64,000 nucleotides of DNA from Flavobacterium gillisiae (lineage in GTDB: Bacteria > Bacteroidota > Bacteroidia > Flavobacteriales > Flavobacteriaceae), in NCBI RefSeq assembly GCF_900107635.1, contig NZ_FNRD01000005.1:206420-270419 (forward strand). Reading direction: 5' to 3'. Numbering within the stretch: position 1 is the stretch's first letter; each line of letters begins with the position of its first letter. The notes beneath the pieces are model-generated. The model was not told where the DNA came from. It was given only the letters and a program-made list of their open reading frames with translations, and did not search any database. Positions 4,131-55,511 of the stretch are shown here, in pieces. Made by a program: the position numbers and the translations under genes.

Positions 4131-4250
4131 GCTGGTTTTTTTCGCCGAAATTATGATTTTAACGGCAAACTTTTCAAATTTATGTTGGCAGATTCTACCT
4201 TTTATATTTTCTATTTGCTATTCCAATTTACGTTTCAACGTCATTTCTTT

Positions 4251-5057: not shown

Positions 5058-5103
5058 TTTAAATATTTCTATTTTCTATGCAGTTTTTTGGTTCAACTTG
5101 CCT

Positions 5104-5226
5104 GTAACGTTTTGCTGCTTTGAGATGGCTGGAAGTTCGTAACCGCTCAATTTTCGGCTTTGCAGGATGCTGATGCGAAACAATAATTCCACTAAACTCC
5201 AGCTAGCTCAAAATGGCTGTTGTGCG
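5104..5226. repeat. ~120-bp palindromic intergenic repeat, copy C
   Basis: Starts TAACGTTTTGCTGC and ends AAAATGGCTGTTGTGCG. The internal arms TTTGAGATGGCTGGAAGTT (about 5119-5137) and AACTCCAGCTAGCTCAAA (about 5196-5213) are imperfect inverted repeats that could fold one strand into a long hairpin. On the minus strand it begins within about ten bases of the stop codon of the TlpA-like gene at 5236. Confidence 0.65.
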
Positions 5227-5235
5227 ATCGGCATA

Positions 5236-6432
5236 TTATTGATAGTTATAGAATTCGATTTCTTTTGAAACTTTTTCCAAGCGTAAACCATATTCTTTTA
5301 AGTCATTAATTAATTCGGGGAATGTACCTTTTCTAATTATAAAGTCTAAGTTCTTATCTTGTTCTGTTTCATTAAATATTATTATTTTATGATAATTACC
5401 AACATCTCTAATTAGTGTTTCAATATTAGAATTTGAAAAAATAAAATGTGTTGTGCTGCTACCACTATGTTTTTGTTTCTCTTCTTGATTAAGGGAAAAG
5501 TTTAATTTTTCAGTATTTTCTACTTTTAGATTATAAACTTCTACTTTTTTAACTTCTACTTTTTCTGTTAAGTTTAAGGAGGTTAATAGATTGTTCTTTA
5601 ATACTTTACTATGTTCGTTTATCTCAATTTTATTTAAATTTTTGTAGAAAATATTATATTTATTTTGAACTAACTCATTTGGAATACTAATTTGATATTC
5701 AGGCTTTTTGATGATTTTTGAAATCATGGACTTTAAATTATTATTTAAGTCAATGTATTTTCCTTTCCATAAGGCATCGAATGCCATAACATCGTCATTT
5801 TCAGCTGCATTTATTACGCTAAAAACATAATAAGCTTTGCTGTCTTTCAAAAGTTCTAAAGTGATATCTATACTGTTTGCCGGTTCTTGTTCTTCGGTTA
5901 CTTTTTCTTGCTTCTTTTCTGTAGGTAAAGTTAAATTTCCCTTTGAAATGTTTGTTCCGTTCAAAAAGTTTTCAATTACTGAACTATTTAATTCAGTTGG
6001 TATTCCAATCCATCTTATAATTCCTTTATTATCTATTAAAACAGTATGTGGTATTTCGTCAACATTAAAATTAGCTTCATTTAATTTTGTTTGATCAGAA
6101 ACGACTACCGTTTTAAATAGTATTTTTTCGAGTGTTCGTTTTGTTTTTTCTGGTTTTTCGTAAGTCATAGAAAGAAAAAGTAAATCTTTTCTATTTTTAA
6201 AATTATCATGTAATTCATTTAAATGCGGTACAGCGCTTAGACAAGGTGCGCACCAAGTAGCCCAAAATTCAAGAACTATAAATTTACCTTCAATATTTTT
6301 ATCTTTCGGAGTATTTAAGATATAATCTGTAATATTTAATTTTGGCGCTTTATCACCAACTTTTAAAGTGTCTTGCGAATAAAGATTTCCGCCTAAGAAA
6401 ATAAGAAGGATTAGAACATTGATTTTTTTCAT
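5236..6432 (-). CDS. TlpA-like thiol-disulfide protein with DUF3738-like C-terminal region
   Basis: A 398-residue exported protein (signal peptide to about residue 19, GGNLYSQ). Residues about 25-165 are a TlpA/ResA-type thioredoxin domain with the redox pair WCAPC (Cys61, Cys64) in FWATWCAPCLSAVPHL and a cis-proline region EIPHTVLID. It should work outside the cytoplasm, reducing or exchanging disulfides. The second half (about 190-398) lacks thioredoxin motifs. Its VEVYNLKVENTEKLNF stretch and final LINDLKEYGLRLEKVS resemble DUF3738, a pairing known in Bacteroidota. Repeat copy C follows its stop codon. Confidence 0.8.
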   Translation of the reverse strand: MKKINVLILLIFLGGNLYSQDTLKVGDKAPKLNITDYILNTPKDKNIEGKFIVLEFWATWCAPCLSAVPHLNELHDNFKNRKDLLFLSMTYEKPEKTKRTLEKILFKTVVVSDQTKLNEANFNVDEIPHTVLIDNKGIIRWIGIPTELNSSVIENFLNGTNISKGNLTLPTEKKQEKVTEEQEPANSIDITLELLKDSKAYYVFSVINAAENDDVMAFDALWKGKYIDLNNNLKSMISKIIKKPEYQISIPNELVQNKYNIFYKNLNKIEINEHSKVLKNNLLTSLNLTEKVEVKKVEVYNLKVENTEKLNFSLNQEEKQKHSGSSTTHFIFSNSNIETLIRDVGNYHKIIIFNETEQDKNLDFIIRKGTFPELINDLKEYGLRLEKVSKEIEFYNYQ

Positions 6433-6924
6433 TATTTTGGTTTTTGATTATTATTTTTCTCCAGCGCAATGCTGTCGCACAACTAGTATATAACATAAAG
6501 TATATACCTCTTTTTATTAAATTCAATCTTTTTCCTAGAAACAAAAATCCACAACAAAAACAAATGCACTGCATCTTCTTGTTGTGGATTAATTTTGTTT
6601 TTCGTGGTTTTCAAATGTAAGATTTTTTTGTCCAAATTAAAGCGCGACTTATTAACAACTTAATACTACTTATGAGTTATAAAGTTTACTTAGTCGCTTT
6701 TTTAGTTAGTAGTAGCATCCGATAATTGTTATTGGTTTTATTTCATTTGTATTTTTATGTAAAAGCTCTTCCTTATTAAGAAGCAGCGTCACAGAGAGAA
6801 TCGCAGTATTTGTTTGATTGCTTCGTTATTTCCTTTCCATTGCTCATACCCTAATAGCAATGAAAAATATGTGGATTAGCGGTGTTTTTACTTTCATGAT
6901 TAGGAAACACATTCGTGATTTCTA
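6433..6924. other. Gene-free spacer
   Basis: I find no convincing gene on either strand between the TlpA-like gene and the structured element at 6925. The longest hidden reading frame (about 6860-6925 on the plus strand) is only about 20 codons and has no supporting features. The sequence is AT-rich with no strong terminator. Confidence 0.4.
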
Positions 6925-37248: not shown

Positions 37249-39321
37249 CTAAATATACAATTCTTTTAACAGTCGATTTAACTGAAACTGCTCTTTTTCA
37301 TCTAATTGAGGTAAAATTCTTTCAAACGAAAGTACCATCACCTGATCTTTCAATAACTTTCTGATAGTGTCTCTTCCAAATTTAGAAAATTGCCACATGT
37401 GATGGGTTGTAGCATTTACCAAATTCTTTAAAACAGCATCATTGATAAGTTGAAAAGCCACTAGTTTTTCTAATGCTTTTTGACGTGTGATAGCCTCATA
37501 ATTGGGTGATGAATAATTGATCAACTCTGCTATCAGAGCTGTTTTATCCGCTTCATATTCTGGAGTAGATAGCGCCTGTGACAACCATAATGTTCTTAAA
37601 TTATAGTCGCTGAAACCAATCCAGTCTTTAGATAGTTCCAAGTAAACAGAACGTTGTTCTGGAAAATTATTCCATAAATAAAACAAAGCTATTTCCTGTG
37701 TCTGATAGGATTTGTCACTTAATAAACTTTCATATTGAATCCTGAAATCTGCGGGAATCTTTGAATTTGTACTGGCAACAGCCTGACGAACTTGGACATT
37801 ATTAGTAGCTAAAGCCAACTCCAAGAGCTTCTTCTTAGCTTCAAATTTTTCGTTTTTCAGCTGATTAACAACTGCTTCTTTCGCAGTGTAATAAGCATTT
37901 GACTGAAGAATTTCTGTCATAAACCCAGCTTTCTCTGACAGTGGTTTTTTCTTAACTTTATCCAATTCAAGTAATAATTGAGTTGTTTTATTTTTACTAA
38001 GTAACTCATTGACTGTCTTTATTTCAAACACAGTAGACTCAAGCCATACTTTACTAAATTTAGCGGTGTCAAAATCAGACACTTTATTCACTTCATCAAA
38101 GAAATCCTGCGTTTTGACACTCTGAAAAGAATATTTCTCCAAGTAACTACGCACCGCTTTTTTAAATGCTTTATCACCTATTGCTTGATGCAAAGCAAAT
38201 AAAGTCCAAGCCCCTTTTTGATAAAAACTTAAGGAACTTGCTTTTTCATTGAGAACCGGAATTGTATCCGTTCTAGTTGCATATTTAATTTGCTGTGCTG
38301 TTTCGTATAATTTCGAGTAGAAATAATCATCTCCATAGATTTCTCGTTCTGCAAGTAAGGCATAGTAAGTCGCAAAGCCTTCTTGTAGCCAATGATGTTT
38401 TCCGCTTTCGGCAGTGATTAAATCTCCAAACCACTGATGTGCCAGCTCGTGTGCATTGACATTTGTATAATTACGATCTTCAAAACCAGTAGAATCAACT
38501 ACATAACGACTGGAAAATAAGGTTGCCGACGTATTTTCCATTCCAGCATACAGAAAATCACGAACTGGAATTTGCTTATACACTTTCCAAGGATACTTCA
38601 CTCCTATTTCTTTCTCCAGAAAATCAAATATTCGAACAGAATAACGGTAAGCAGGTTCGTACCTATCCACATCCTTAGGTTCCAAATATAATTCTAATTC
38701 AATACCGCATTTTGTAATCTCAGTACGCTTATCAAATTTACCGATAGCAAGCATCAACAAATAAGAACTCATGGGTTTTTCCATTCTATATTCCCACAGA
38801 GTCATGTTGTTGTTCGTCGTTTTCTTAGTCAATATTCCATTTGAAATCGCCTGGTACTCTTGACTAAAAACCAGTTCTATATTAAAAATTACTTTTTCAT
38901 TTACATCATCAAAACTCGGAAACCAATTACTGGTATACTTCCCTTGACCCTGAGTCCAGATTTGCAAATCATCTGCCGTTTCAGAACCTACGAAATATAA
39001 AGCCTGCTTAGGTATGGCTGCATATCCAAAACTAATTTCATTTCTACCTTTTTTAAACGGATATATAATTTGTAACTGCTTCTCTGTATTTATAAAAGGC
39101 ACCGGCTTATCATTGAGTCTTACTTCTGTAAAACTCATGTTTTGTGCATCTATTTTTATTGTATCAATAGGTTTTAATACCTCCAACCAATAATGTAACG
39201 AACCCACAACAGATTTCTCTTTTGCATCTAAAGTCAATTGACCAGAAACCGATTTAAAATCAACAAATCTTGTCTGTTGGGCGAAAGCCAGTGAAGAGAT
39301 TAAAAGAAACAGGTATTTCAT
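37249..39321 (-). CDS. M1-family metallo-aminopeptidase
   Basis: 690 residues with a signal peptide (residues 1-14, LLISSLAFAQ). The exopeptidase motif is AGMENTSATLF and the zinc site is HELAHQWFGDL with the third ligand Glu in WLQEGFATYY, the HExxH-x18-E pattern. It removes N-terminal residues from peptides in the periplasm or outside the cell. The C-terminal region is helical, as in the family. No T9SS C-terminal domain is visible. Confidence 0.93.
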   Translation of the reverse strand: MKYLFLLISSLAFAQQTRFVDFKSVSGQLTLDAKEKSVVGSLHYWLEVLKPIDTIKIDAQNMSFTEVRLNDKPVPFINTEKQLQIIYPFKKGRNEISFGYAAIPKQALYFVGSETADDLQIWTQGQGKYTSNWFPSFDDVNEKVIFNIELVFSQEYQAISNGILTKKTTNNNMTLWEYRMEKPMSSYLLMLAIGKFDKRTEITKCGIELELYLEPKDVDRYEPAYRYSVRIFDFLEKEIGVKYPWKVYKQIPVRDFLYAGMENTSATLFSSRYVVDSTGFEDRNYTNVNAHELAHQWFGDLITAESGKHHWLQEGFATYYALLAEREIYGDDYFYSKLYETAQQIKYATRTDTIPVLNEKASSLSFYQKGAWTLFALHQAIGDKAFKKAVRSYLEKYSFQSVKTQDFFDEVNKVSDFDTAKFSKVWLESTVFEIKTVNELLSKNKTTQLLLELDKVKKKPLSEKAGFMTEILQSNAYYTAKEAVVNQLKNEKFEAKKKLLELALATNNVQVRQAVASTNSKIPADFRIQYESLLSDKSYQTQEIALFYLWNNFPEQRSVYLELSKDWIGFSDYNLRTLWLSQALSTPEYEADKTALIAELINYSSPNYEAITRQKALEKLVAFQLINDAVLKNLVNATTHHMWQFSKFGRDTIRKLLKDQVMVLSFERILPQLDEKEQFQLNRLLKELYI

Positions 39322-39380
39322 TTAAGAAAATTTAATTAAGTAAAAGCCAAAGTTACAAAGGAATCAGGAACAAACAGAAG

Positions 39381-39388
39381 TATTTTTG
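39381..39388 (+). promoter_or_regulatory. Candidate -7 element for the Dph6-like gene
   Basis: TATTTTTG (TAnnTTTG), 35 bp before the TTG start at 39424. Confidence 0.4.
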
Positions 39389-39423
39389 TAAGTTTACCAA
39401 TAGAAATTTACAATATAAAAACC

Positions 39424-40158
39424 TTGAAAAAGAAAGCCATTTTTAACTGGAGTAGTGGAAAAGACTCTGCTTTAGCTCTTTATAAAACCTTGCTAAATCC
39501 GGAATTTGAAATTAGTTGTTTGCTCACCAGCGTTAACCAACAATTTCAGCGTATTTCCATGCACGGGGTTCGTGTAGAATTATTGGAAAAACAAGCCAAA
39601 AGCATCGGCTTACCGCTTGAAATCATGCAAATTCCGGAAATGCCAACAATGGAAGTGTATGAAAGCGTGATGCAGACAACACTGGAAAAATTGAAAATTC
39701 AAGGTGTAACCCACTCCATTTTTGGTGACATATTCTTGGAAGACCTTCGTAAATACAGAGAAGACAAATTAGCCACTATGGGATTTGAGGGCGTTTTTCC
39801 ACTTTGGAAAGTACCAACTCATGACTTGATACAGGAATTCATTGGACTGGGCTTTAAAACCATTGTCGTTTGTGTCAACGAGCGATTTCTCGACAAAAGC
39901 TTTGTAGGAAGGATAATTGATCAGGATTTTATTAACGATTTGCCTGAAAATGTAGATGTTTGTGGTGAAAATGGCGAATTTCATACCTTCACTTTTGACG
40001 GTCCTATTTTCTCAAAGCCTATTGATTTTGAAATTGGAGAAATCGTGTATCGCAAATATGAAAAACCAAAGGAAGACTCCAGTAACACCGCTTGCGATAG
40101 CGATGCAACTGATGCGTTTGAGTACGGGTTTTGGTATTGTGATCTTTTAGAGCAATAA
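39424..40158 (+). CDS. Dph6-like ATP pyrophosphatase (adenine nucleotide alpha hydrolase family)
   Basis: 244 residues. The PP-loop is FNWSSGKDSALALY (residues 7-20). HGVRVELLEKQA and CGENGEFHTFTFDGPIF are hallmarks of the diphthine-ammonia-ligase family. Bacteria lack diphthamide, so the real substrate is unknown; other members act in B12 or tRNA metabolism. The start is TTG (MKKKAIFNWS); there is no nearby in-frame ATG. Confidence 0.85.
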   Translation: MKKKAIFNWSSGKDSALALYKTLLNPEFEISCLLTSVNQQFQRISMHGVRVELLEKQAKSIGLPLEIMQIPEMPTMEVYESVMQTTLEKLKIQGVTHSIFGDIFLEDLRKYREDKLATMGFEGVFPLWKVPTHDLIQEFIGLGFKTIVVCVNERFLDKSFVGRIIDQDFINDLPENVDVCGENGEFHTFTFDGPIFSKPIDFEIGEIVYRKYEKPKEDSSNTACDSDATDAFEYGFWYCDLLEQ

Positions 40159-40294
40159 TTGTAATAATAAAACGCTGAATACCAGAAAATTTCGGAGTAG
40201 TAGTGTTTTTTTGTAAAGGTTCTTATGCCTTAAGTAAGTTGATGCACACCATCTTTGAGTCCTTGTAAAAGGAAACATAAAAACAGCGTTATTT

Positions 40295-40753
40295 TTAGAC
40301 TTTCCATTTTGAAAAACTTATTTCTTGAAGATGCCGTTCCACATAATTTTTAAAATTATTTAAAATGGCCTGCCAACCTTCTTTTTGTAATTCAATGGGA
40401 TTTTCAGTTTCTGCTTCAAATAGTTGTACCACTCTGGTTTTATACTCCACCTTTGTGAAAATAATTTTTACTTTTCTTCCATCATCCGCGGTATATGTAA
40501 TTTGTTCATTTGCTTGAACTTCCTCATATTTCCCTCTAAAATCAAAACCGGCACTCCCATCTTTGGCTTCCATCCTAAAACAGAATTTTCCATCAATTCG
40601 TAAATCATTCTCAGCCCAAGTCGTATGCCAATCCTCAGAAGCCGCATTCCACAAAACAATATTTTGAGGCGAAGTCCAATTTTTCCAAACCGTTTCTATT
40701 GGCGCATCAATTATAGTTTCTACCGTAATAATTATTTTCGTATTTGATTCCAT
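40295..40753 (-). CDS. SRPBCC/AHSA1-like domain protein
   Basis: 152 residues. It shows the START-like fold of the AHSA1 family: VETIIDAPIETVWKNWTSP at the N-terminus, GKFCFRMEAKDGSAGFDFRGKY in the middle, and a C-terminal helix EGWQAILNNFKNYVE. It may bind a hydrophobic ligand. No operon partner is evident. Confidence 0.88.
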   Translation of the reverse strand: MESNTKIIITVETIIDAPIETVWKNWTSPQNIVLWNAASEDWHTTWAENDLRIDGKFCFRMEAKDGSAGFDFRGKYEEVQANEQITYTADDGRKVKIIFTKVEYKTRVVQLFEAETENPIELQKEGWQAILNNFKNYVERHLQEISFSKWKV

Positions 40754-40896
40754 AATGTTTTGTTTTTAAACAGCTAACCATGTAAACTTTTACTTAATTA
40801 AGTATAAATTTAAAACAAAATCTCCAAAACTATTCCAAATATTATCATAAGAAACATACCTATACTATCTTTTTTTTAAGAGTAGTTATTATAAAA

Positions 40897-40932
40897 AAAA
40901 CTCCGAAATCAAATGATATCGGAGTTTTTTTT
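40897..40932. terminator. Bidirectional rho-independent terminator
   Basis: Stem AAAACTCCGA (40897-40906) with TCGGAGTTTT (40919-40928), A-rich before and T-rich after. It lies between two minus-strand genes, directly after pepP. Confidence 0.75.
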
Positions 40933-40975
40933 ATACAAGTGAATCCTAAAATCACTATTTACGGATCTAAATATA

Positions 40976-42460
40976 TTAGTCTAAACTAGGCAAAGTAAAG
41001 CCGTCGAGCACACTCTTTTCTTTCATAAGCGCTTCGATTTCCTCCGACTTTCTCGGGGCTTCCCCAGATAAGTTTACTGGCTCATTTGCTGTAACCAATA
41101 TATCGTCTTCGATTCGCACGGCAATTCCCCACCATTTTTTATCACAATTACTACCCTTAGGAATATAAATCCCTGGTTCTACAGTAAGAACCATATCAAT
41201 ATCAAATGTGTCGTATAGTCCAGGATCATGAACATCTAAACCTATATGATGTGAGGTTCCGTGCGGAAAATAAACTCTTGACTCCTCTTCTGTCGATATA
41301 ATCCCCAGTTTCATTAAACCTACGGTGATCACTTTCCGTGCTGCAATATCAGGTGAATTAAAGCTGTTTCCCTGTTTTACGGTGGCAATTCCAGCTTCTT
41401 GCGCTTGATAAACTAAATCATAAATTAGTTTCTGCTCTGTCGAGAATTTCCCATTGGCAGGGATTGTTCGGGTTACATCGGCAGTGTAACCGTGGTACTC
41501 TGCGCCTAAATCCATTAAAACCAAATCATTTTCGACCTTCATTTTACTATTCTCGATGTAATGCAAAACACAACCATTATTTCCGGCTCCTACAATTGAA
41601 GGGTAGCCTTCAAACTCACAACCATATTTTTTATAAACAAATTCATGAATTCCTTGTATCTCCGTCTCGGACATTCCGGGATGCATCGCTTTCATTATTT
41701 CACGTTGTCCCATGGCTGAAATCCGAACTGCCTTAGTCAGTAATACTAATTCTTCTTTGGATTTAATCTCACGTAAACTTGCCATATACGTTTGAATCGA
41801 CTGGGTATTGATAGTTACTTTCTTTTGCGTTATGTTTTTTTTATTTCGAAACTCATTCTGTACATTAGGATCTATTTCAGGTACTACTTTTGCGTTGTAT
41901 CCCACTTGACTCTTAAATGCTTCTGTCAATTTATATAAATCAGCTTCATCACGTTTCGAATCCCGGTAATCATCTTTAAATTCTTTAAAAAGAACCGAGC
42001 TGAAGTCGGCATAATTAATCCCTGAATTCAAAAACTCTTTGCCGTTATATGCGATGTCAAAACCTAAATTATTCTTGGCGCCTTCCGTACCTAAACGAAT
42101 TCCAGTCCATTGCTCTGCTCTAATATTTTTTTCTTGAACATAAAGAACTTCATTATAGGTTTTCCCTGATTTATTAGTTTGCTCATTCGAGAAAATAACT
42201 AAAACCGAATTAGGTTCTTTGTATCCTGTTAAATAATAAAAATCAGGATCTTGGTGATACACATAATCTACATCATTGGCTCTGTTGCGAACCGCATTTC
42301 CAAAAAACACAGCTACACTATTATTAGGCATCTTACTTCGTAAGGCAGCTCTTCGTTCTTTGTGGAACTGGGAAGTTAAGTAATCACTAGGAGTACCTGT
42401 TTGCCCGTTGGAAAAACAAACAAAAAAAATACTGATGATAACGGAAAGTTTGAAATTCAT
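40976..42460 (-). CDS. pepP: Exported Xaa-Pro aminopeptidase (M24B)
   Basis: 494 residues with a signal peptide (residues 1-19, FVCFSNGQ). The M24 metal ligands are visible in order: two Asp in LMDLGAEYHGYTADVTRT, His in GTSHHIGLDVHD, Glu in TVEPGIYIP and Glu in AVRIEDDIL. It splits the bond before proline at a peptide N-terminus. The N-terminal aminopeptidase-P domain (AALRSKMPNNSVAVFFGNA) confirms the subfamily. Confidence 0.93.
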   Translation of the reverse strand: MNFKLSVIISIFFVCFSNGQTGTPSDYLTSQFHKERRAALRSKMPNNSVAVFFGNAVRNRANDVDYVYHQDPDFYYLTGYKEPNSVLVIFSNEQTNKSGKTYNEVLYVQEKNIRAEQWTGIRLGTEGAKNNLGFDIAYNGKEFLNSGINYADFSSVLFKEFKDDYRDSKRDEADLYKLTEAFKSQVGYNAKVVPEIDPNVQNEFRNKKNITQKKVTINTQSIQTYMASLREIKSKEELVLLTKAVRISAMGQREIMKAMHPGMSETEIQGIHEFVYKKYGCEFEGYPSIVGAGNNGCVLHYIENSKMKVENDLVLMDLGAEYHGYTADVTRTIPANGKFSTEQKLIYDLVYQAQEAGIATVKQGNSFNSPDIAARKVITVGLMKLGIISTEEESRVYFPHGTSHHIGLDVHDPGLYDTFDIDMVLTVEPGIYIPKGSNCDKKWWGIAVRIEDDILVTANEPVNLSGEAPRKSEEIEALMKEKSVLDGFTLPSLD

Positions 42461-42593
42461 CTCTTCTAAATTAAGGTTTCTAATAATTAATTACGGAGTA
42501 GTAAATATAAATCGTTTTTGCGTCTAAACCATGCGATTTACTAATTCATGAGTAGATACAAAAAAACTATTATAAAATTCAATTAAAAAAAAA

Positions 42594-42636
42594 TGCTGAT
42601 TCGCAACATACAAGGATCGTATATTGCGAATCAGCA
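42594..42636 (-). terminator. Strong rho-independent terminator of the DUF1697 gene
   Basis: A 13-bp perfect stem, TGCTGATTCGCAA (42594-42606) and TTGCGAATCAGCA (42624-42636). On the minus strand it is followed by nine Ts. Confidence 0.9.
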
Positions 42637-42667
42637 GTCAGTCTATATTCAAAAGGCATCTCTTAAT

Positions 42668-43243
42668 CTAAGCCAATTCTTCATACATCTTCAACAATTG
42701 TGTCACTGTGTTCCAGTTTCTAATTGTTGCCGTTAGGTTTAGTTTTTTCTCAATATATTTCTGATCTAATCTTGTTTTCCCAGCCCCGACAGCATATTTA
42801 ATAAAAATCCGATTGCCGTCTAGATGGGCTTCATCAGGTTTAAATTGGCTAATTTTCAAATCATTAATATTTTCAGAACGAAGCTCTTTAGAAACAAAAG
42901 CAACATATAATTTCTTCGTATCTACTTCTTTCTCTTTCATAAAAGGATTATTGGAGAAACAAGCTTTAAGATCTGCCACATTAAGAATGATTACTGGCAC
43001 ATCACCACCAAAGACCTTAAAAATTTCCTGCTTAATGATAAAACCAACTTTAGCTGCATTTTCTTCTTCGGTGGTTACAAAAACATTCCCTGATTGAATA
43101 TAAGTTTCCACTTTTGTAAAACCAATGTTTTCCAATGTTGTTTTTAGTGCGTTCATTTTTATCATGTTGTGACCGGAAACATTAATACCACGAAGCAAGC
43201 ATAAGTGTACTATACTTTGATTATTATTTTTATCTTTATCCAA
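42668..43243 (-). CDS. DUF1697 family protein, 5' end probably altered
   Basis: 191 residues. CLLRGINVSGHNMIKMNALKTTLENIGF, then VETYIQSGNVFV, is the DUF1697 signature (approximate spans), and ATIRNWNTVTQLLKM is its end. Function unknown. The only plausible start in front of the signature is a TTG at 43243 giving MDKDKNNNQ, an unusual extension; family members usually begin a few residues before LLRGINV with ATG. The start lies 16 bp from the divergent serine recombinase, so the native 5' end seems to have been displaced by island insertion. Confidence 0.85.
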   Translation of the reverse strand: MDKDKNNNQSIVHLCLLRGINVSGHNMIKMNALKTTLENIGFTKVETYIQSGNVFVTTEEENAAKVGFIIKQEIFKVFGGDVPVIILNVADLKACFSNNPFMKEKEVDTKKLYVAFVSKELRSENINDLKISQFKPDEAHLDGNRIFIKYAVGAGKTRLDQKYIEKKLNLTATIRNWNTVTQLLKMYEELA

Positions 43244-43259
43244 AATTAATTTATTTTAT

Positions 43260-45086
43260 ATGACAAATCTAGCTATTTATGTGAGAGTATCGACGACCAA
43301 TCAAAGTTATTCTAGACAAATTGAAGATATTGAAAAATATATAGCTACCATATATGATAATAAAAAAACTAATATAGACGTATACGCTGAAAACATATCG
43401 GGATTCAAAAACTCAAAAGATAGGCCACAACTAACAAGGTTTTTAACCAAGGTTGCTGCAGAACCAGAGTACTATAAATGTTTATACGTAACCGAATTGT
43501 CTAGGGTTGGTAGAAATCCAATTGAAGCACGTACCATTGTGACTAACCTACTTGAACAAAATATAGATGTATGTATAACATCAACAAATGGCGGTTCTAA
43601 TTTCCTTAACGCTGATGGTTCAATAGATAAAACAAAATTTGCGGTATTGGGTTTACTTATGGACTTTGCACAAATTGAAGTTGATGTATTCAAATCACGT
43701 ACCGCATCTGGACTTAAAGAAAAAGTACTCAAAGGAGGTACAACTGGTGGGCTACTTCAACCCTACGGTTATTCCAAAGATGAGCATAAAAAACTTGTTA
43801 TAGATAAAGAGGAAGCTAAAATAATTGATTCCATTTTCGAACAATATCAACAAGGTTTAGGTATGAATCATATAGCACAACAATTAAACAAAAACAATAC
43901 ACCAACTAGAACTAATAAAGCATTTGAAGGAAAAGAATATAAAGGTAAAAATGCTGATGCTGTAAAATGGACTGCTAACCAAATCTATGTGATACTAACC
44001 AACACTATCTATTACGGTGTACGTGTTTTTAACAAAAGAAAAAAGAAAAATAAAGACGGTATACTTGAAGATAATTCTGAATCATTTGATTCACCTGATG
44101 TTGCTATTATTACAAAAGAACGATATGATAAGTGCACTGAGATAAGACTTAACAAAAAAGGTAATGGTAGAAACATACATACAAAAAACGTTATTCTACT
44201 TCAGTACCTAACTACTTGTGGTGTATGTGGTCGTAATTACACACATAGAGTTGGTGACACCAATCAAAATTATATTTGTTCATCACGGGTTATTTTTGGT
44301 CTTAAATCGTGTGGAAATCTCGGCGTTAATATTGATTTGGTTGATAGTAGTATCTATAATATTCTTTGTAATTCACAAACAGTACTAAAATACCTAAGTG
44401 ATACCGATTCAATCAAAAAAGATTTAGAGAATAAAATAAACCTACTTGAATCGTCTATACCCTTTTTAGAAAAGGAATTAAAAACAAATGAACTTAAAAT
44501 CGATAGGTTACTTGATTCAATGCTTGATGATACAATAACTAAAGAACGTTTTAATTCTAAGAGTACAGAACTGTCTTCAATCAGTACCAACCTAACTACA
44601 CAACTTGAAATACAAACAAAACAACTTATATCAAATAAAAAATCACTAAAGAACCTAACTAAAGTAAATCTTGATGATAGCGTGTTAAAACAAGCTAAAA
44701 GCGATAGAAACAAACTGAAATCAATCTATAAACAAATAATTAAAGATGTAACCATTACAGGACTTAACTACCAATTCATCAGACTAGACATAACACTACA
44801 AATAAATGGTTCACCAATTGCTGGTACCCTTAAAGTTGTTGTAAGTAGAAAAGGATTGAGAAAAAAACCATACAAATATCAATACCAAGATGAATATCTA
44901 GCACCGTTTGAACCATCTGAAGAAATTGATGATTACTACGAGCGTATTGGTAATAATACTAAGTATCAATATAAAAATAATAATGAATACAATGCTATAA
45001 TAAGTGATTTTAAGATAATTACAGATAATATCATCAACATAAAAGAATCATATTCTAAAAACCCTCTAAGTGATTCTAATGTATAA
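43260..45086 (+). CDS. Large serine recombinase (integrase type)
   Basis: 608 residues. The catalytic resolvase domain (about 3-150) has the nucleophile Ser11 in YVRVSTTNQSYSRQI and ELSRVGRNPIEA. The recombinase domain (about 160-290) includes AQQLNKNNTPTRT. A zinc ribbon has Cys pairs in CGVCGRNYTHR and ICSS...KSCGN. A coiled-coil motif (about 385-480) follows. Such enzymes integrate and excise phages and genomic islands. It starts 16 bp from the displaced DUF1697 gene, the usual position next to an attachment site, and marks the left island edge. Confidence 0.93.
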   Translation: MTNLAIYVRVSTTNQSYSRQIEDIEKYIATIYDNKKTNIDVYAENISGFKNSKDRPQLTRFLTKVAAEPEYYKCLYVTELSRVGRNPIEARTIVTNLLEQNIDVCITSTNGGSNFLNADGSIDKTKFAVLGLLMDFAQIEVDVFKSRTASGLKEKVLKGGTTGGLLQPYGYSKDEHKKLVIDKEEAKIIDSIFEQYQQGLGMNHIAQQLNKNNTPTRTNKAFEGKEYKGKNADAVKWTANQIYVILTNTIYYGVRVFNKRKKKNKDGILEDNSESFDSPDVAIITKERYDKCTEIRLNKKGNGRNIHTKNVILLQYLTTCGVCGRNYTHRVGDTNQNYICSSRVIFGLKSCGNLGVNIDLVDSSIYNILCNSQTVLKYLSDTDSIKKDLENKINLLESSIPFLEKELKTNELKIDRLLDSMLDDTITKERFNSKSTELSSISTNLTTQLEIQTKQLISNKKSLKNLTKVNLDDSVLKQAKSDRNKLKSIYKQIIKDVTITGLNYQFIRLDITLQINGSPIAGTLKVVVSRKGLRKKPYKYQYQDEYLAPFEPSEEIDDYYERIGNNTKYQYKNNNEYNAIISDFKIITDNIINIKESYSKNPLSDSNV

Positions 45087-45100
45087 TATTCGACATAGCA

Positions 45101-45727
45101 TTAAATCATTTTTCTGTTAGACATTACTTTTTTTACCTTAATTATAGTAGCACTAGACGCTCCCGTTATTTCATTGATTTCACGAACGGTTAATCCCTTC
45201 TGTAACTTCTTTTGAATTGTTTGATGGCGTTGTAATAATTTTTCATCCGATTGGATGGTTCCTAATTTTCTACCTGTAAATTTGCCCATGGCCTTACCTA
45301 TAGCAATTCCCTCAGCGGTTCTAGTTTTAATTCGGTTACGCTCCATTTCTCCAATACTAGCCATTACACTAATCACAAGTTTTGCCATTGGGTTTTCATC
45401 ACCGTTATCAAGTAAGGTTGTAAAACCTTCTTTAAGCGATTTTAAATTGATACCATTTTTAGTAAATGTTTCAATAGTATGTAAAATATCTAGCAAGTTT
45501 CTACCTAAACGGTCAATTGAATCAACAACAACAGTACAGCGTTGTGAATCGTCTGTTATTTCATCAAACATCTTATTTGCTTCGGGACGTTCGAAAAAAG
45601 GAACGTTACCCTGAATTTTTTCAATGAATACTTTTTTAACATCGTACCCAACATGAGATTTGAAATTTTCTAGTTGGCGGCTTGAATTTTGTTGAGCGGT
45701 TGAGATTCTTGAATAGAAGTAAAACAT
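45101..45727 (-). CDS. Small serine recombinase (resolvase/invertase)
   Basis: 208 residues. Resolvase domain with nucleophile Ser9 in YSRISTAQQNSSRQL, DSIDRLGRNLLDIL and MASIGEMERNRIKTRTAEG. A C-terminal Hin-like HTH (KGLTVREINEITGASSATIIKV) follows. It resolves cointegrates or inverts DNA. It is convergent with the large recombinase, with 14 bp between the stop codons. Confidence 0.93.
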   Translation of the reverse strand: MFYFYSRISTAQQNSSRQLENFKSHVGYDVKKVFIEKIQGNVPFFERPEANKMFDEITDDSQRCTVVVDSIDRLGRNLLDILHTIETFTKNGINLKSLKEGFTTLLDNGDENPMAKLVISVMASIGEMERNRIKTRTAEGIAIGKAMGKFTGRKLGTIQSDEKLLQRHQTIQKKLQKGLTVREINEITGASSATIIKVKKVMSNRKMI

Positions 45728-49053: not shown

Positions 49054-50259
49054 TTATGGTATTTCTAGAATTGCCTTATTTTCGTGGTCGTATCTATACT
49101 TCACAATTGTTTCATCCAAAATCAAATCAATTACTTTATCAATGATTGCGAATGGTACAACAAACCATTCTCTAGGAGTGATTCGCCTTCCTTGGTTATC
49201 ATGTATGTCCACATTCAAACAAACCTCAGCAAAGAAACGATGTAGCAACTGTTCAAACTTATGAGGATTCACACTGTAACATTTATAAGTTGAAACAATC
49301 TCTACCTCAGCCAGTAAGTATGTAGGTTCCTTGGCCGCATTTTTTATTCTAGCTTTTACATCAAGTTTTGAAAAACCTATTTTATGTAAATCCTTAATCT
49401 CTGAAATAGATTGGTTCGTTGATTTTGATTTTAAAACATAAATCCAACCTGTTTCTATATCCTCTTCATTTAAAATATTTGCATTTTTAAAGAGTTCATT
49501 TTCTGCTTCAGAATCGGTATTAGAAACTATCCTACCATTATTATATAGTCCTTTAGATAAACTACGATAATACATGTTGCTTACTGTACCATTTTCAAAA
49601 ATAATTTTGGTACGACCGTCTTTTCGAACTACATCTCCTAATTTTCTTCCTTCAATACCGTCTTCCTCTAAAAACAAAAGAATTCCATCTAAAATATAAT
49701 ACTTCCCTTTTTCTAGGTTTTGTTCCACATCTTTAAACTCTGAAAGTTTTCTTTTTCCTTCACGTAAATCTTTATGAACTGCCTTGAAATTAGCCTCATA
49801 AGGCGCAAAATCTTTGTCTTTCATTGCTTTCCTTCTGGCCGTGAAATCGGTTTCTGCTCTTTCTGCTGAAGTTGGAACGTTTTTTATATTAAATATCTCA
49901 GATGCTTCATCGGTATCTAAAATACCTAATTCATCATCGTTCAAAATATCATCAACTGAAGTAATTTCTACACTAATTTCATCCAATAAATTATGGGTGT
50001 CATAGGGCTTTAATATCTCTGTGGTTAAGCTACAGTTTCTAAATCCTTTCAACCGAACTCCCAAACTACGCTCATTTACTATAAAAACATCCGCTTTGGG
50101 TTCTCTATTATTTTTTTCAAAAAAGGCATTAACTTCTAGGAACGAATCAATTAAGCGGTCGTTCTCAGATTTGATATTAGAAACTTTAGCTTTGGTGTCT
50201 AAAATTCCTAATTCATCATCGTTAAAAATATCGTCTAATGTTAATTTTTTCTTATCCAT
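49054..50259 (-). CDS. T5orf172/GIY-YIG nuclease of a putative restriction-like operon
   Basis: 401 residues. The C-terminal domain (about 268-390) starts TGWIYVLKSKS, then DLHKIGFSKLDVKARIKNA, and has EQLLHRFFAEV, the GIY-YIG-like arrangement of the T5orf172/MUG113 family (catalytic Tyr, Arg, His and Glu positions visible). The N-terminal region contains a duplicated acidic motif, DDELGILDT, at residues 14-22 and 108-116, each preceded by DDIF/DDIL. The start overlaps the helicase stop by 8 bp, so it is translationally coupled. It is inferred to be the cutting subunit. Confidence 0.8.
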   Translation of the reverse strand: MDKKKLTLDDIFNDDELGILDTKAKVSNIKSENDRLIDSFLEVNAFFEKNNREPKADVFIVNERSLGVRLKGFRNCSLTTEILKPYDTHNLLDEISVEITSVDDILNDDELGILDTDEASEIFNIKNVPTSAERAETDFTARRKAMKDKDFAPYEANFKAVHKDLREGKRKLSEFKDVEQNLEKGKYYILDGILLFLEEDGIEGRKLGDVVRKDGRTKIIFENGTVSNMYYRSLSKGLYNNGRIVSNTDSEAENELFKNANILNEEDIETGWIYVLKSKSTNQSISEIKDLHKIGFSKLDVKARIKNAAKEPTYLLAEVEIVSTYKCYSVNPHKFEQLLHRFFAEVCLNVDIHDNQGRRITPREWFVVPFAIIDKVIDLILDETIVKYRYDHENKAILEIP

Positions 50260-52195
50260 TTGCCGTGGCTTTACGCTTTTGTTCCTTCAGATAAATAATG
50301 ATTTCTGCCATTCTCTTTTCTTTAGGGTCTAAAGCATCAATTCTGGGTTGTGTTCCTGTTCTTTTAATCCATTCTTTTATCGTTGGCCATTTCTCGATAG
50401 CCTCCGATTCTTCCACTTGAATTCGGGTGGCTTCAATGGTTTCTTGAATAGCTCTGAATACAGATGCTGTTACTGATTTAGATAGTATCTCAAATGCTTT
50501 TTGAAACGGATTGATACTGTCTATCAAGTCAATATGTATATCATCAATATTTACAAAACTATCGGCCATTCGAATAAAACGCTTGTCGCCTTGGGTCTCA
50601 ATGGTACTATTTTTTATAACTGAATCGACCACCACATGTTGACGAACTTGCTCTACTTCTTCATCCGTTAAATCAGGATAGGTTTCTCTAATGATTTTAG
50701 GAATTAAAACTTTATTAATCACTTCAGGGTCAACATTTCCAGGCAAAGCTTTAATCATCGTATCATTTTGCAGGATAGTAGCTTTTAAATCATTAATATC
50801 TGATTCTATTATATTCTTTACCCTTTTTGATGATGGCTTCTTAAAACCATTGATTCTTATAGTATCATCATCGTCTTCTGATTCATCATCATTTTCGTCT
50901 TCGTCTGGGAATTTAGGTTTAAATTTAAAATTGGGTGCCAAAACTTGTTCCATTAATAACGAGGCTGTAATAGCTTTTAGCATATTATTAACCGATAATT
51001 TTACTTCACCATCTTCTGCATCGGGTTGGGCTATAAGGTTGGTAAACTGAGCATGAGATTTATTATCACTGTCTCTGGTCGCTCGACCTATAATTTGTAT
51101 AATCTCAGTCAAAGAACCTCTATATCCTACCGTTAAGGCATGCTCGCAATAAGGCCAGTCAAAGCCCTCCTTAGCCATTCCTAATGCAATGATAACATCA
51201 ATATCATCAGCACTTTTTACATCTCTTAAATAGCCTTGAATCTTGTCTCTTTCTTTTTGAGTATCATTGACTAAATCAGCAACTTTCAAGGTTCTACCTG
51301 TCTTTTTGCTTATGACAAACAGAACTCCTGTATCTGGGTCTTGATAATCTAATTCTCCTAAGCTTTCAATAATACGGCTTACTTCTTCATATTTATCTTT
51401 AGTCGATTCCCCTGCATTTACACTTGGAATGTGAACTATTGTTTTTTTACTTTCATCCAATACCTCATCGATTGCTGAGGTATACTTTCCTTGGTAAAAA
51501 TGATATCCAATACCCAATGATTTTAAGTATTCGTATCCATTCAATTGCTCGTAATAATTGTAGGTTACTTTTATGAATTTCTCTTCCACCTCTGGCAAAA
51601 GTACTGGAACACTATCGCCTCTAAAATAGGAACCTGTCATGGCCACCACATGTGCGGTTGATTTATCCATTACAGATTGTAATACTGCGCCTAAACGATT
51701 TTCTCCATCAACCGAAACGTGGTGGAACTCATCAATGGCCAGAACCACATCATTTAAAGCTTTTTCATCTATTGCGTCAAAGGCAAAACGCAAGGTTGCA
51801 TGCGTACAAATCAATATCTTTTCCTCACTTGCTAGAAAGTTCATGAAGGCGGTTACTTTGCTTTTTTCTCCAGTTGCCGTACAAAGATTATATTTAGGGT
51901 TTGGGTTCCAATCAGCATAAAAACCGTATTTGGTTAATTCCGTTTTACTAAACGAACTACCAATACTACGCTCTGGAACGGCCACAATTACTTTTCTTAA
52001 TCCTTGTTTGATTAACTTATCTAAACCAATAAACATCAAAGCTCTTGACTTTCCAGAGGCAGGCGGTGCTTTAATTAGTAAATATTGAGCCGTACGAGCT
52101 TCAAATGCTCTGGCCTGCATTTCTCGCATTCCATATTCATTGGTGCGCTTGCTTTTCCCTGTTTGATTGTAACTAACGTGTACTATATCTGGCAT
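50252..52195 (-). CDS. Superfamily 2 DEAD/DEAH-type helicase of a putative restriction-like operon
   Basis: 647 residues. Walker A is KAPPASGKSRALM (about 43-55). Motif II is AIDEFHHVS (DEFH), III is MTGSYFRGD, and VI is QIIGRATRD. Two RecA-like domains are followed by an acidic linker (DEDENDDESEDDDD, about 428-441) and a helical C-terminal region. It would translocate or remodel DNA using ATP. One base separates its ATG from the methyltransferase stop, and its end overlaps the nuclease gene, a strongly coupled operon. Confidence 0.88.
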   Translation of the reverse strand: MPDIVHVSYNQTGKSKRTNEYGMREMQARAFEARTAQYLLIKAPPASGKSRALMFIGLDKLIKQGLRKVIVAVPERSIGSSFSKTELTKYGFYADWNPNPKYNLCTATGEKSKVTAFMNFLASEEKILICTHATLRFAFDAIDEKALNDVVLAIDEFHHVSVDGENRLGAVLQSVMDKSTAHVVAMTGSYFRGDSVPVLLPEVEEKFIKVTYNYYEQLNGYEYLKSLGIGYHFYQGKYTSAIDEVLDESKKTIVHIPSVNAGESTKDKYEEVSRIIESLGELDYQDPDTGVLFVISKKTGRTLKVADLVNDTQKERDKIQGYLRDVKSADDIDVIIALGMAKEGFDWPYCEHALTVGYRGSLTEIIQIIGRATRDSDNKSHAQFTNLIAQPDAEDGEVKLSVNNMLKAITASLLMEQVLAPNFKFKPKFPDEDENDDESEDDDDTIRINGFKKPSSKRVKNIIESDINDLKATILQNDTMIKALPGNVDPEVINKVLIPKIIRETYPDLTDEEVEQVRQHVVVDSVIKNSTIETQGDKRFIRMADSFVNIDDIHIDLIDSINPFQKAFEILSKSVTASVFRAIQETIEATRIQVEESEAIEKWPTIKEWIKRTGTQPRIDALDPKEKRMAEIIIYLKEQKRKATANG

Positions 52196-52196
52196 A

Positions 52197-54893
52197 TTAT
52201 TTAGCTTTCTTGGTTTTCTTTTCTTTTACAAACAAATTGTTCTTGGTCGTCATTTCTTCATATAACTTAAACAGATACTCTAAACGCTCGGTATCATTCT
52301 CAAATGGTTTCAAGCGATAACAACGCTCAATGGCCAAATCTAACTCATGGTGTGCCTCTTTTAGCCCTTTTGGCATTTTCTCTGGGTCATACAACTGCGC
52401 TAAAGTTTTCGTTGGATGTTTTGCTCTTTCATCTAAAACGGCAAAAACATGTAAGTTGATGGTTTCTTTTTGTTTGTCAGAAATTTCAGGAAAAGGAAAG
52501 GTATTATAACATAATGTATTAGAATATTGCATATCCATCTTTAACCTTCCTGCCACTGCTTTTACCCAAACGATGTGCATTTTAGATGATAACATGCCAA
52601 ATAGCCATGGTTCAGCATCATAGACAACTCTAGCTGCATTAGAAATAACATAAGTATTATCATAAAAACCAACAGGTAAATACTTTCTTCTTTCTGAACC
52701 CGTTTGAGGAATTAAAATACAATCTGAATCTTTGTACTTCATTTCATCAAATTGATTTGGAAATGATGCTTTTTTAACAGTGGATTCTTTTTTACTGGCA
52801 AGCCTAAATTCCCTAACTTTTTCTAGCCTATCTACAAAGGGTTTGAAGTTTTTAATTTCCTCCAAATACTTATCTTCAATCAAAATGCAATACCTTAAAA
52901 AGCCATTCATGAATTCTCTAGCGCCTATATATTTTTTTATAAATTTATGATATTCAGGGTTTTCTGTAATAATCTTATTTTTTTCTTCTTCATCTAGTAA
53001 TAAATTACCATTATCTCCAGGAGAACTACCTTTAATCATTTGAGGCAATTTCGAGATTGGTTTGTTAGTTTGATTTATAAAAACATTGGAGCCTTCAATT
53101 AAATACCCGTTAATATTCTTAGTCTTTTTTAACAAACCATTATTAAATAAATATTTTTCATCACTGAACTTATTTGCTAAACCAATAATCACAACACTTA
53201 CACCCGCATTTCCTTTCGCATTATTTGTCCATTTAAAAGATTGGTAAGCAAAAGAGATTTCAATTTCTTTAGAAAATATGAACGGCCACAAAAGAGCTAC
53301 TTGCTCTCCTTGTGTAATTGAATTTGTAGTTACAAATGAAAATTTACTATTGTTATTTCTTATATAATCAGCCCCTTTAACAAACCAACATGCAATATAA
53401 TCCAGCTTTTTATAGTCTACCATTTTTGAGCATACAATAGACATGTCTGCCTTTTGTTCAGCATCTTGCCTGCTATAGCCTAAATAGGGTGGATTACCCA
53501 ATATATAAACCTCATCGGCTAAATCTATCGGACAGACTGTTTTCCAATCTAAACGAGTCGCATTACCTTGTATAATATTCCCCGCTTCTTTTAATGGTAA
53601 AATAGGCTTGGCTTTACCCAAACCGTGCAACTCCTCTACAAACTCTTTGTTCATTTGGTGTTCTGCTAACCAAAGGGACAAAATCGCCATTTCGTGTGCA
53701 AAATCATCTAACTCGATACCGTAAAACTGAGAAAGTTTTATCTCTGTAAATAAGATACTTTGTTGCGATTGAATCTCAATTAAATGGTTTAGTATTTCTA
53801 TCTCTAAACGTCTAATTTCTTTATATGCAATAATCAAAAAGTTACCGCTACCACAGGCAGGGTCAAAACATTTTATTTTTGAAATTCTATAAATCAGTTT
53901 CCTTAATTTGTTTACATTTCCTTTGCTTTTTTCAAATTCTTCCTTTATTTCGTTTAGAAACAAAGGTTCAATTACCTTCATGATATTAGGTACCGAAGTA
54001 TAGTGCATTCCTAAACCACTACGGTATTCTGGGTTTACAACGGCTTGAATCATGGAACCAAATATATCTGGATTGATTTCACTCCAATCAAGGTTTCCAC
54101 ATTCAATAATTATCTTTCTGGCCTTAGATGAAAATACAGGCGATTGAATATCGTCTCTAAACAGCCCCCCGTTTACATACGGAAACGCTTGTAGGAAATC
54201 TGGTTCTTTACTATTATTCTCTCTATTTAAGACAGTAAACAGACGGTTTAAAAAGGTATGGGTATCTGTTCCATCTGGCTTGGTATGTTGTGCCAGTGCA
54301 TCGGTAAACATTCCTTCAATCGGGAATATATTGGTATCCTCAGCAAAGAAACAAAACAACAGACGAGAAAGAAATATGTTGAGGTTGTGGCCACCATCAT
54401 CATAAATAGTTGGGTTTTCATGTACCAAAATATCATACAGCTTGGCCATTTCATACGAGGCTTTGCGGTCAGCATGATTTTCGTTCTTGGATTGGTATTT
54501 TTCTTGACCCGCCCATGGTAAAAAGAAATCGTATCGTTTGTTTAATTCTTTTATTGGTGTATCTAAAGTAATTCCAGTACGAATATCTTTGGCCAATAAT
54601 GTTTTATAATCGGTTACAATTACAAAACGTGGATTGTGTTTTAAGCTTTCTTCGCTTTTGGTTAAATCATCAATAGTGGTTAGTAGTTTATCTGAAGCTA
54701 CTTCTTTAAAAAGTACTTTCTTTTTGTATAAAACCTCTCCTTCAACTTTAGATAAGTTGAAGTCTCCTTTCTTTAATCGAGTAACCGTAGTCTTAGAGAT
54801 ACCATAGGCCACCAACAAATCGTAGATAAAGTTTTCTTTATCAATCGATTTTACTAATTCATCAAGATTCTTTTCTATTTGAGTGGCGCCCAT
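52197..54893 (-). CDS. MmeI-like class I N6-adenine DNA methyltransferase
   Basis: 898 residues. The SAM-binding motif I is FDPACGSGNFLIIAYKEI (about 342-359), then GIELDDFAHEMAILSLWLAEHQ, and the catalytic NPPY motif is ILGNPPYLGYSRQD (about 467). VTTNSITQGEQVALLWPF and the C-terminal target-recognition-like part (AVAGRLKMDMQYSNTLCYNTFPFP) resemble the MmeI/type IIG family. Unlike MmeI, the N-terminal ~200 residues show no clear D-x(n)-ExK nuclease motif. It is first in a three-gene operon with a helicase and a GIY-YIG nuclease, which suggests the modification arm of a restriction system. Confidence 0.9.
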   Translation of the reverse strand: MGATQIEKNLDELVKSIDKENFIYDLLVAYGISKTTVTRLKKGDFNLSKVEGEVLYKKKVLFKEVASDKLLTTIDDLTKSEESLKHNPRFVIVTDYKTLLAKDIRTGITLDTPIKELNKRYDFFLPWAGQEKYQSKNENHADRKASYEMAKLYDILVHENPTIYDDGGHNLNIFLSRLLFCFFAEDTNIFPIEGMFTDALAQHTKPDGTDTHTFLNRLFTVLNRENNSKEPDFLQAFPYVNGGLFRDDIQSPVFSSKARKIIIECGNLDWSEINPDIFGSMIQAVVNPEYRSGLGMHYTSVPNIMKVIEPLFLNEIKEEFEKSKGNVNKLRKLIYRISKIKCFDPACGSGNFLIIAYKEIRRLEIEILNHLIEIQSQQSILFTEIKLSQFYGIELDDFAHEMAILSLWLAEHQMNKEFVEELHGLGKAKPILPLKEAGNIIQGNATRLDWKTVCPIDLADEVYILGNPPYLGYSRQDAEQKADMSIVCSKMVDYKKLDYIACWFVKGADYIRNNNSKFSFVTTNSITQGEQVALLWPFIFSKEIEISFAYQSFKWTNNAKGNAGVSVVIIGLANKFSDEKYLFNNGLLKKTKNINGYLIEGSNVFINQTNKPISKLPQMIKGSSPGDNGNLLLDEEEKNKIITENPEYHKFIKKYIGAREFMNGFLRYCILIEDKYLEEIKNFKPFVDRLEKVREFRLASKKESTVKKASFPNQFDEMKYKDSDCILIPQTGSERRKYLPVGFYDNTYVISNAARVVYDAEPWLFGMLSSKMHIVWVKAVAGRLKMDMQYSNTLCYNTFPFPEISDKQKETINLHVFAVLDERAKHPTKTLAQLYDPEKMPKGLKEAHHELDLAIERCYRLKPFENDTERLEYLFKLYEEMTTKNNLFVKEKKTKKAK

Positions 54894-55229: not shown

Positions 55230-55511
55230 ATGGAAAACGCAATCATGTTACACAATTTATCTCTAAAGGAATTGGAGCAATTAATAGAGCGAGTGGTTAA
55301 AACACAATTGGAAGAGTTTAGAAAAAACCAAGCTAAAGAAAAGCCAGATGAGTTATTGACTAGAGAAGAGACTTATAAATTATTGAAGATTGATAGTAGT
55401 ACACTTTGGCACTGGACTAAAAAAGGAAAAGTAACTGCTTATGGAATTGGTAATCGTAGATACTACAAAAGGTCTGAGTTGCTGGAGAGTTTAATAAAGC
55501 TTAAAATATAA
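55230..55511 (+). CDS. Excisionase/MerR-like helix-turn-helix protein
   Basis: 93 residues. An N-terminal helix is followed by an HTH_17-type domain, LLTREETYKLLKIDSSTLWHWTKKGKVTAYGIGNRRYYKRSEL (approximate span). This family includes Xis-like DNA-bending proteins common in Bacteroidota mobile elements, usually near an integrase or mobilisation genes. It probably serves the island's excision or regulation. The start codon is ATG 55230 (MENAIML); a second ATG at 55245 is possible. Confidence 0.82.
   Translation: MENAIMLHNLSLKELEQLIERVVKTQLEEFRKNQAKEKPDELLTREETYKLLKIDSSTLWHWTKKGKVTAYGIGNRRYYKRSELLESLIKLKI

Follow-up and report, generated by a model that had tools for sequence, protein, structure and literature searches.

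Introduction

The closest described relative of the locus reported here is the dnmA (yeeA)-yeeB-yeeC operon of Bacillus subtilis, in which a homologue of MmeI without the endonuclease motif is followed by a helicase at position +1 and a T5orf172/GIY-YIG protein at position +2 (PMC7261158, PMC9973331). DnmA forms N6-methyladenine (m6A) at GACGAG, and the three-gene combination is conserved in other genomes, an observation credited to Morgan 2009 and Makarova 2011 (PMC7261158, PMC9973331). Here we analyze a methyltransferase-helicase-nuclease trio located in a 64,000-nucleotide stretch of Flavobacterium gillisiae (NCBI RefSeq assembly GCF_900107635.1, contig NZ_FNRD01000005.1, positions 206,420 to 270,419 of the forward strand), which is hereafter called the window and to which unlabelled coordinates refer. 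Since the dnmA-yeeB-yeeC combination has already been published, the trio is a member of the already described, widespread DnmA-YeeB-YeeC family and not a new system. We consider it probable, judging from sequence comparisons, that it constitutes a split, ATP-dependent restriction-modification (R-M) system of this make-up. A sequence-only reading of the window had proposed a split R-M-like defence system; the split R-M-like make-up is supported by the loss of the nuclease site from the methyltransferase, the helicase and nuclease encoded alongside, the conservation of the trio, its position in a recombinase island and its distinctness from DISARM, BREX and type I systems in the gene content scanned. 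A role in defence is a prediction on which published results disagree.

Results and Discussion

Organization and conservation of the locus

The three genes lie on the minus strand in the order methyltransferase, helicase, nuclease, and all three frames are open. They encode an 898-aa MmeI-type N6-adenine methyltransferase (52197..54893), a 647-aa superfamily 2 (SF2) helicase of the DExH type (50252..52195) and a 401-aa GIY-YIG-like (T5orf172/MUG113) nuclease (49054..50259). A single base (52196) separates the methyltransferase stop from the helicase start, the helicase gene shares 8 bp (50252-50259) with the nuclease gene, and the layout given by the sequence-only reading is confirmed. Promoter-like sites were about as frequent as in shuffled sequences (36 vs 30.5), as were terminator-like sites (5 vs 3.8). 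In its own genome the methyltransferase matches only itself.

Compared by description, the trio has the same three protein types in the same order as dnmA-yeeB-yeeC, including a methyltransferase without the endonuclease motif: the first gene after the MmeI-like methyltransferase, on the same strand, encodes an SF2 helicase (+1), and the next one a T5orf172/GIY-YIG protein (+2). According to their authors, YeeB and YeeC of B. subtilis are missing stretches in their C-terminal parts (PMC7261158, PMC9973331). The B. subtilis control genome was positive for MmeI_TRD in our genome profile search, and no B. subtilis name appeared among the matches listed in the protein searches, including one started from a Bacillus nuclease and aimed at YeeC.

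The association of the three families was followed in the best 80 of at least 550 confirmed matches, ranked by helicase similarity; the helicase protein search itself yielded at least 8,000 scored candidates, all of them relatives. The loci (numbered with L; genomes with G) are spread over Bacteroidota, Bacillota and Campylobacterota as well as other bacteria, and there is one archaeal contig among them. Helicase is followed by nuclease in 80 of 80 loci, overlapping in 69 and by exactly 8 bp in 35 (with mechanically assigned starts), and the methyltransferase lies upstream of the helicase in 68. In the remaining 12, at most 2,406 bp of contig is present upstream of the helicase; one of these, L050, has a methyltransferase downstream. 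The conserved co-occurrence on which the sequence-only reading had staked its proposal is thus found. Proteins cut by a contig end were left out of the script-built alignments, for which the minimum length was 800 aa for methyltransferases, 600 aa for helicases and 350 aa for nucleases; after trimming of over-extended starts, these contained 62, 78 and 76 sequences, respectively, window included.

A sample of the genus that was not selected by helicase gave a second view. A search of 150 genomes with MmeI_TRD found 23 positive genomes with 28 matches, four of which are fragments in two genomes; 14 of the other 24 have the helicase. The remaining 10 show no helicase within the 1.5-5.7 kb available downstream, although a long embedded gene could hide one in the shortest contigs. 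Helicase-linked methyltransferases are 50-71% identical to that of the window (itself excluded), as against 31-42% for those without helicase. Among plasmid records, 264 contain a helicase match at E <= 1e-5, and in 147 of them at least 80% of the helicase is covered; three phage records match it, none of them over 80%.

An MmeI-type methyltransferase that has lost its nuclease site

All five MmeI Pfam domains (MmeI_N, MmeI_hel, MmeI_Mtase, MmeI_TRD and MmeI_C) were found in the methyltransferase, the MmeI structure PDB 5hr4 matches its residues 86-898 (E=3.6e-191), and its top PADLOC model is a type IIG enzyme (1028 bits). The protein consists of a pseudo-nuclease domain (residues 1-158), a helical spacer, a methyltransferase core, a target recognition domain (TRD) and a C-terminal helical domain. 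The motifs reported by the sequence-only reading are present, namely FDPACGSGNF at residue 343 and motif IV NPPY at 467-470 in the methyltransferase, DEFHH at 155-159 in the helicase and the conserved T5orf172 residues in the nuclease.

The catalytic residues of the MmeI nuclease are D70, E80 and K82 (PMC4833311). When aligned with active relatives, the window methyltransferase reads E53, K63 and V65 in register with these columns (EVLYKKKVLFKEV, residues 53-65, 54699..54737, minus strand). The D-x9-ExK triad is kept in none of 72 operon methyltransferases, the window included, a set in which the same genome appears from two collections at least for L002/L125, L027/L121 and L071/L122. It is kept in seven of eight stand-alone methyltransferases of the genus with a readable N terminus, for example DLLWKGTILIEMK; ten stand-alone loci were taken, and L114 and L116, whose N termini are unreadable, were excluded from this count. 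The loss of the triad in the window and ten linked loci as compared with the eight stand-alone loci gives a Fisher p of 1.6e-4, uncorrected for kinship. An intact MmeI/type IIL enzyme is ruled out by this loss. The five-domain chassis, the gamma-class N6-adenine motifs and a TRD alignable to MmeI residues 642-810 (PMC4833311) are shared with the type IIL enzymes; the difference is that the PD-(D/E)XK site has been lost here and that cutting and ATPase activities are predicted to reside on two further proteins.

Covariation between the proteins was assessed from pairwise distances, with sliding windows, over the 58 loci that have all three proteins (window included). Ten domain pairs were compared, and the pseudo-nuclease and the helicase showed the strongest correlation (r 0.91), as against 0.835 for core and helicase (bootstrap range of the difference 0.032-0.132). 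The partial correlation of pseudo-nuclease and helicase given the core was 0.71; that of core and helicase was 0.36. Because the domain is kept in the family and co-varies with the helicase more strongly than the core does, we infer that the dead N-terminal domain may have been retained as a dock for the helicase.

The helicase and the nuclease

The helicase matches the Pfam families DEAD, Helicase_C and ResIII, has intact motifs (APPASGKS at 43-50, besides DEFHH) and is 63-90% identical to relatives from several phyla; it was aligned with a choice of sequences, 55 in all, and the nuclease alignment likewise contains 76 chosen sequences rather than all at hand. A closer placement of the helicase is not claimed, as its model is a generic SF2 core and HsdR is found among the Foldseek matches together with many other SF2 proteins; HsdR chains are absent from the 50 VIA-align matches listed for the model.

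In the nuclease, the Pfam families T5orf172 and MUG113 both fall in the last third of the protein; the predicted catalytic domain spans residues ~265-400. Residues G271, Y274, K293, G295, R304, E336, H340 and E364-W365-F366 are invariant among the 76 aligned nucleases. A T5orf172/MUG113 domain with conserved catalytic-type residues points to membership of the GIY-YIG superfamily. Outside this domain, the aligned nucleases carry two copies of the motif (L/I)DDI(F/L)NDDxxGLL, at residues 8-20 (50200..50238, minus strand) and 102-114 (49918..49956, minus strand). The second copy is the best match to the first within the whole protein in 71 of the 75 nucleases tested (out of the 76). Both motifs form short helices in low-confidence stretches of the AlphaFold model, whose residues ~265-400 are confident. 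The twin motifs are possibly docking motifs.

A variable cassette and the predicted recognition site

The methyltransferase does not co-vary with its partners along its whole length. In its distances to the helicase, r is 0.67-0.86 for windows inside residues 1-500 and 0.56-0.68 for those inside 781-898, while those within 481-800 fall to 0.13-0.24 with the helicase and 0.15-0.30 with the nuclease. The drop starts right after motif IV and ends with the TRD. Saturation alone is not the cause, since the nuclease, which is nearly as divergent (mean divergence 0.53 vs 0.58 for the TRD), still tracks the helicase at r 0.88. Between the window and L002, identity is 88% over residues 1-480, drops to 47% over 481-800 and returns to 90% over 801-880, and their helicases are 89% identical; over the same three segments L049 and L128 are 94, 45 and 94% identical. 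Fifty pairs have at least 80% identity over the first 480 residues, and the median identity of their cassettes is 49%. In MmeI, the counterpart of this region contacts the DNA (residues 487-489 and 642-810; contacts from PMC4833311). Taken from the distance correlations, with approximate limits, residues ~471-800 (52494..53483, minus strand) form an independently varying block, and residues ~470-800 are likely to be an exchangeable specificity cassette.

The published residue code of MmeI was applied to this region. By alignment to MmeI, the window has K, D and E at positions 723, 737 and 738, and among the 62 aligned methyltransferases positions 806/808 read K-D in 31, E-R in 20, R-D in eight and other residues in three. 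In MmeI-type enzymes K723 together with E738 points to C at position 1 of the site, although co-variation there is not simple, K806-D808 specifies G at position 6, and the methylated A is at position 5 (PMC4833311). At the MmeI positions for site bases 2-4 the window has K642/S645, Q751/N773 and A774/Q810, for which the rules consulted settle no base. The predicted recognition site is therefore 5'-CNNN(m6A)G, a prediction that differs from the GACGAG of DnmA.

Genes embedded between methyltransferase and helicase

A gap of at least 60 bp, in most cases with embedded genes, lies between the first two genes in 36 of the 68 loci. Thirty of these 36 contain genes related to eight representatives, some of them several and some just pieces; by number of loci the types are Schlafen-AlbA (12), RhuM (12), Fic (5), Bro-N (2), AAA_13 (2) and unnamed (2). 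PADLOC families, for the most part candidate (PDC) ones, were matched by eight of the ten embedded proteins scanned but not by the Schlafen-AlbA representative. The AAA_13 protein embedded in L051 also matches the PrrC model of PADLOC. PrrC is located within a type IC R-M locus and is activated upon inhibition of that enzyme (PMC12707154), and type I loci also harbour further defence genes (PMC11411939). The trio of the window has no embedded gene between methyltransferase and helicase.

Neither the mosaic cassette nor the twin motif nor the embedded genes were found described for the DnmA family in a literature search, with Morgan 2009, Makarova 2011, Piel 2021 and supplements outside its scope. 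The main text of PMC12839542 and PMC13092281 contains no GIY-YIG, DnmA, MmeI or T5orf172, and one methyltransferase is termed YeeA-related in PMC12458937. Genes named yeeA, yeeB and yeeC adjoin blaOXA-23 in the Acinetobacter transposons Tn2006 and Tn2009 (PMC9258068); from their description, they are possibly remnants of the trio family.

Comparison with other restriction and defence systems

Type I R-M systems (HsdR/M/S) share with the trio a separate SF2 helicase gene and a gene-collecting junction before it, with a PrrC-like gene among those collected. They differ in that the trio has no separate HsdS and its nuclease is unfused and of the GIY-YIG type; with the TRD inside the methyltransferase and the nuclease on a separate T5orf172 protein, a type I assignment was rejected. 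The likeness to type III and ISP enzymes consists of an SF2 motor and a predicted asymmetric site marked on one strand, and the division into subunits and the nuclease class are different. DISARM was rejected with no DrmA, DrmB or DrmC among the matches listed for nine window proteins and with a DrmMI score for the methyltransferase of 125 bits against 1028 for the type IIG model. BREX was set aside in the same way, with no PglZ or BrxC among those matches and a PglX score far below the NCBIfam cut-off.

Proposed mechanism and alternative explanations

In the mechanism that we propose, an asymmetric site would be recognized by the methyltransferase and marked on one strand, sites without the mark would load or activate the helicase, and the GIY-YIG-type nuclease would cut the DNA. 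The dead N-terminal domain of the methyltransferase would dock the helicase, and the nuclease may be tethered through its two repeated acidic-hydrophobic motifs. Type III, ISP and IIL enzymes follow a two-site logic, on which we model the last step. When a non-palindromic site is marked on one strand only, each replication yields one daughter site without any mark, and for this reason cutting would require two unmarked sites brought together by the motors. A further-reaching version describes a distinct, active restriction architecture, with a type IIL enzyme stripped of its nuclease, the dead domain as a helicase platform, a GIY-YIG nuclease held by two motifs, a cassette swapped as a block and a slot for guard genes (e.g. 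PrrC-like); this version we hold tentatively, at somewhat less than an even chance.

A number of observations weigh against such a restriction system. The loss of dnmA left transformation of B. subtilis unchanged, strains with deletions in dnmA, yeeB or yeeC were no more and no less susceptible to phages Nf, phi29 and SBS-phiJ, and DnmA was termed a functional orphan and its operon a relic by the authors (PMC7261158, PMC9973331). Foldseek found no match at E <= 0.001 for the whole nuclease model in the PDB, and with no significant solved relative of the whole model the nuclease class rests on the Pfam matches and the conserved residues. The covariation of neighbouring genes can stem from joint transfer alone and is no proof of contact. 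A shared cassette on unlike backbones was seen in 0 of 2,556 pairs by the margin used (the pairs include the repeated genomes noted above), and faster divergence could contribute to the decoupling of the cassette. Gene decay is seen as well: in five of the 80 loci one gene is split over two frames, namely the helicase in L010, the methyltransferase in L018 and L045 and the nuclease in L046 and L074, some perhaps through assembly errors, and the nuclease frame of L123 has only 300 aa. Finally, L115 is a stand-alone relative without the nuclease motif and without a helicase of the family nearby. Its MmeI-like methyltransferase (4099-6843 of G043:C35:1500-11000) is 31% identical to that of the window and lacks D-x9-ExK, and no helicase of the trio family lies within the fetched stretch; it may belong to another multi-gene system.

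One alternative is that the trio is a restriction relic, an orphan regulatory methyltransferase accompanied by a helicase and a nuclease that have ceased to restrict, as proposed for DnmA of B. subtilis, whose operon was inactive against plasmid uptake and the three phages. Methyltransferase fragments in two genomes of the genus (G066 and G133:C2) and the split genes agree with it; the fragmentary matches of L104 and L107-L109 (G066, G133), some with internal stop codons, suggest that the locus decays at times. We nevertheless regard a relic as unlikely for the window, where all frames are open and the catalytic-type residues are present, with a helicase similar to those of relatives from several phyla. 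In Vibrio crassostreae, moreover, homologues are reported to be protective: deletion of those of dnmA and yeeB made the host more sensitive to some phages (Piel 2021, cited in PMC9973331). A regulator would also be expected to keep its motif, and a variable cassette on a conserved chassis fits, in our reading, a restriction system with a changing target and not a fixed epigenetic regulator.

The methyltransferase might instead mark self in the manner of BREX or DISARM, with the helicase and nuclease blocking phage DNA replication or acting on intermediates and no cutting at or between unmarked sites. Its weaker PADLOC matches to DrmMI, PglX and mad2, the resemblance of the helicase core to generic SF2 motors and the undepleted DnmA motif in phage genomes (observed-to-expected ratio 0.97; PMC9973331) would suit that role. 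A nuclease with conserved catalytic-type residues stands beside the helicase in all 80 loci, though, and neither PglZ and BrxC nor DrmA and DrmB were among the matches listed for the nine proteins; such a mechanism seems to us quite improbable. That helicase and nuclease attack foreign DNA by themselves, the methyltransferase being a co-transferred neighbour, is very improbable indeed: the frequent gap between methyltransferase and helicase, mostly filled with embedded genes, would be understandable, but the N-terminal half of the methyltransferase co-varies with the helicase (r ~0.7-0.9), and presence of the helicase and loss of the built-in nuclease occur together in the genus sample. A split restriction system remains our preferred reading of the trio.

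Neighbouring genes and the serine-recombinase island

The sequence-only reading had placed the trio in a recombinase-borne island, and two junctions were located. A related locus, L140, is collinear with window 38744-43197 at 90% identity and beyond that point contains the native 5' end of a DUF1697 gene, which makes it the empty site of the island, whereas synteny with the window breaks at ~43197. The stretch that comes next in L140 recurs at L149:8263-8981, on another contig of the window's genome. The sequence CCACGAAG is present at both junctions as a shared core, on the left at 43188..43197, within the 5' end of the DUF1697 gene, and on the right at ~8263 of L149. A large serine recombinase (43260..45086, plus strand; Resolvase, Recombinase and Zn_ribbon_recom domains, weak CcrA/CcrB likeness) starts 63 bp inside the left junction. 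On the window side the island extends for 20.8 kb to the contig end and on the L149 side for ~8.2 kb, so that it measures at least 29 kb if both ends belong to one element, whose middle is unassembled or located on other contigs.

A small serine recombinase of the resolvase/Mpi type (45101-45727) lies beside the large one in opposite orientation, and L149:894-4689 encodes, as read from the translations, a long sensor kinase-like protein and a LytTR-like response regulator. Neither recombinase was counted as part of the system, with matches of the large one in 0 of 81 loci and of the small one in only three of 81. Upstream of the methyltransferase, a divergent gene (55230-55511) encodes an HTH_17 (helix-turn-helix, HTH) protein that weakly matches MAD1, from the MADS defence system (E=8.6e-06); it was not counted as a part because its relatives, found in two other loci, lie more than 2 kb from the methyltransferase. 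In L011, L014, L016, L019, L025 and L068, short genes stop where the methyltransferase gene begins or within a few bases of that point. They are related to a Cro/C1-type HTH protein of the window and resemble R-M control proteins; directly upstream of the window methyltransferase there is no Cro/C1-type HTH frame of at least 25 aa.

Conclusions

The trio family is abundant, as the number of helicase relatives indicates, and wide-ranging, yet its B. subtilis member appears inactive. The mosaic pattern of the methyltransferases predicts that many members of the family are working restriction systems with changing specificity. If the architecture with a block-swapped cassette proves true, the target site would be re-programmed by recombination on a fixed chassis. 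The pseudo-nuclease domain, the twin motif of the nuclease and the residue code provide concrete handles on the assembly of a split restriction enzyme. If the prediction of working restriction systems is true, methyltransferases of this kind that are now matched as type IIG enzymes or called orphans would need re-annotation.

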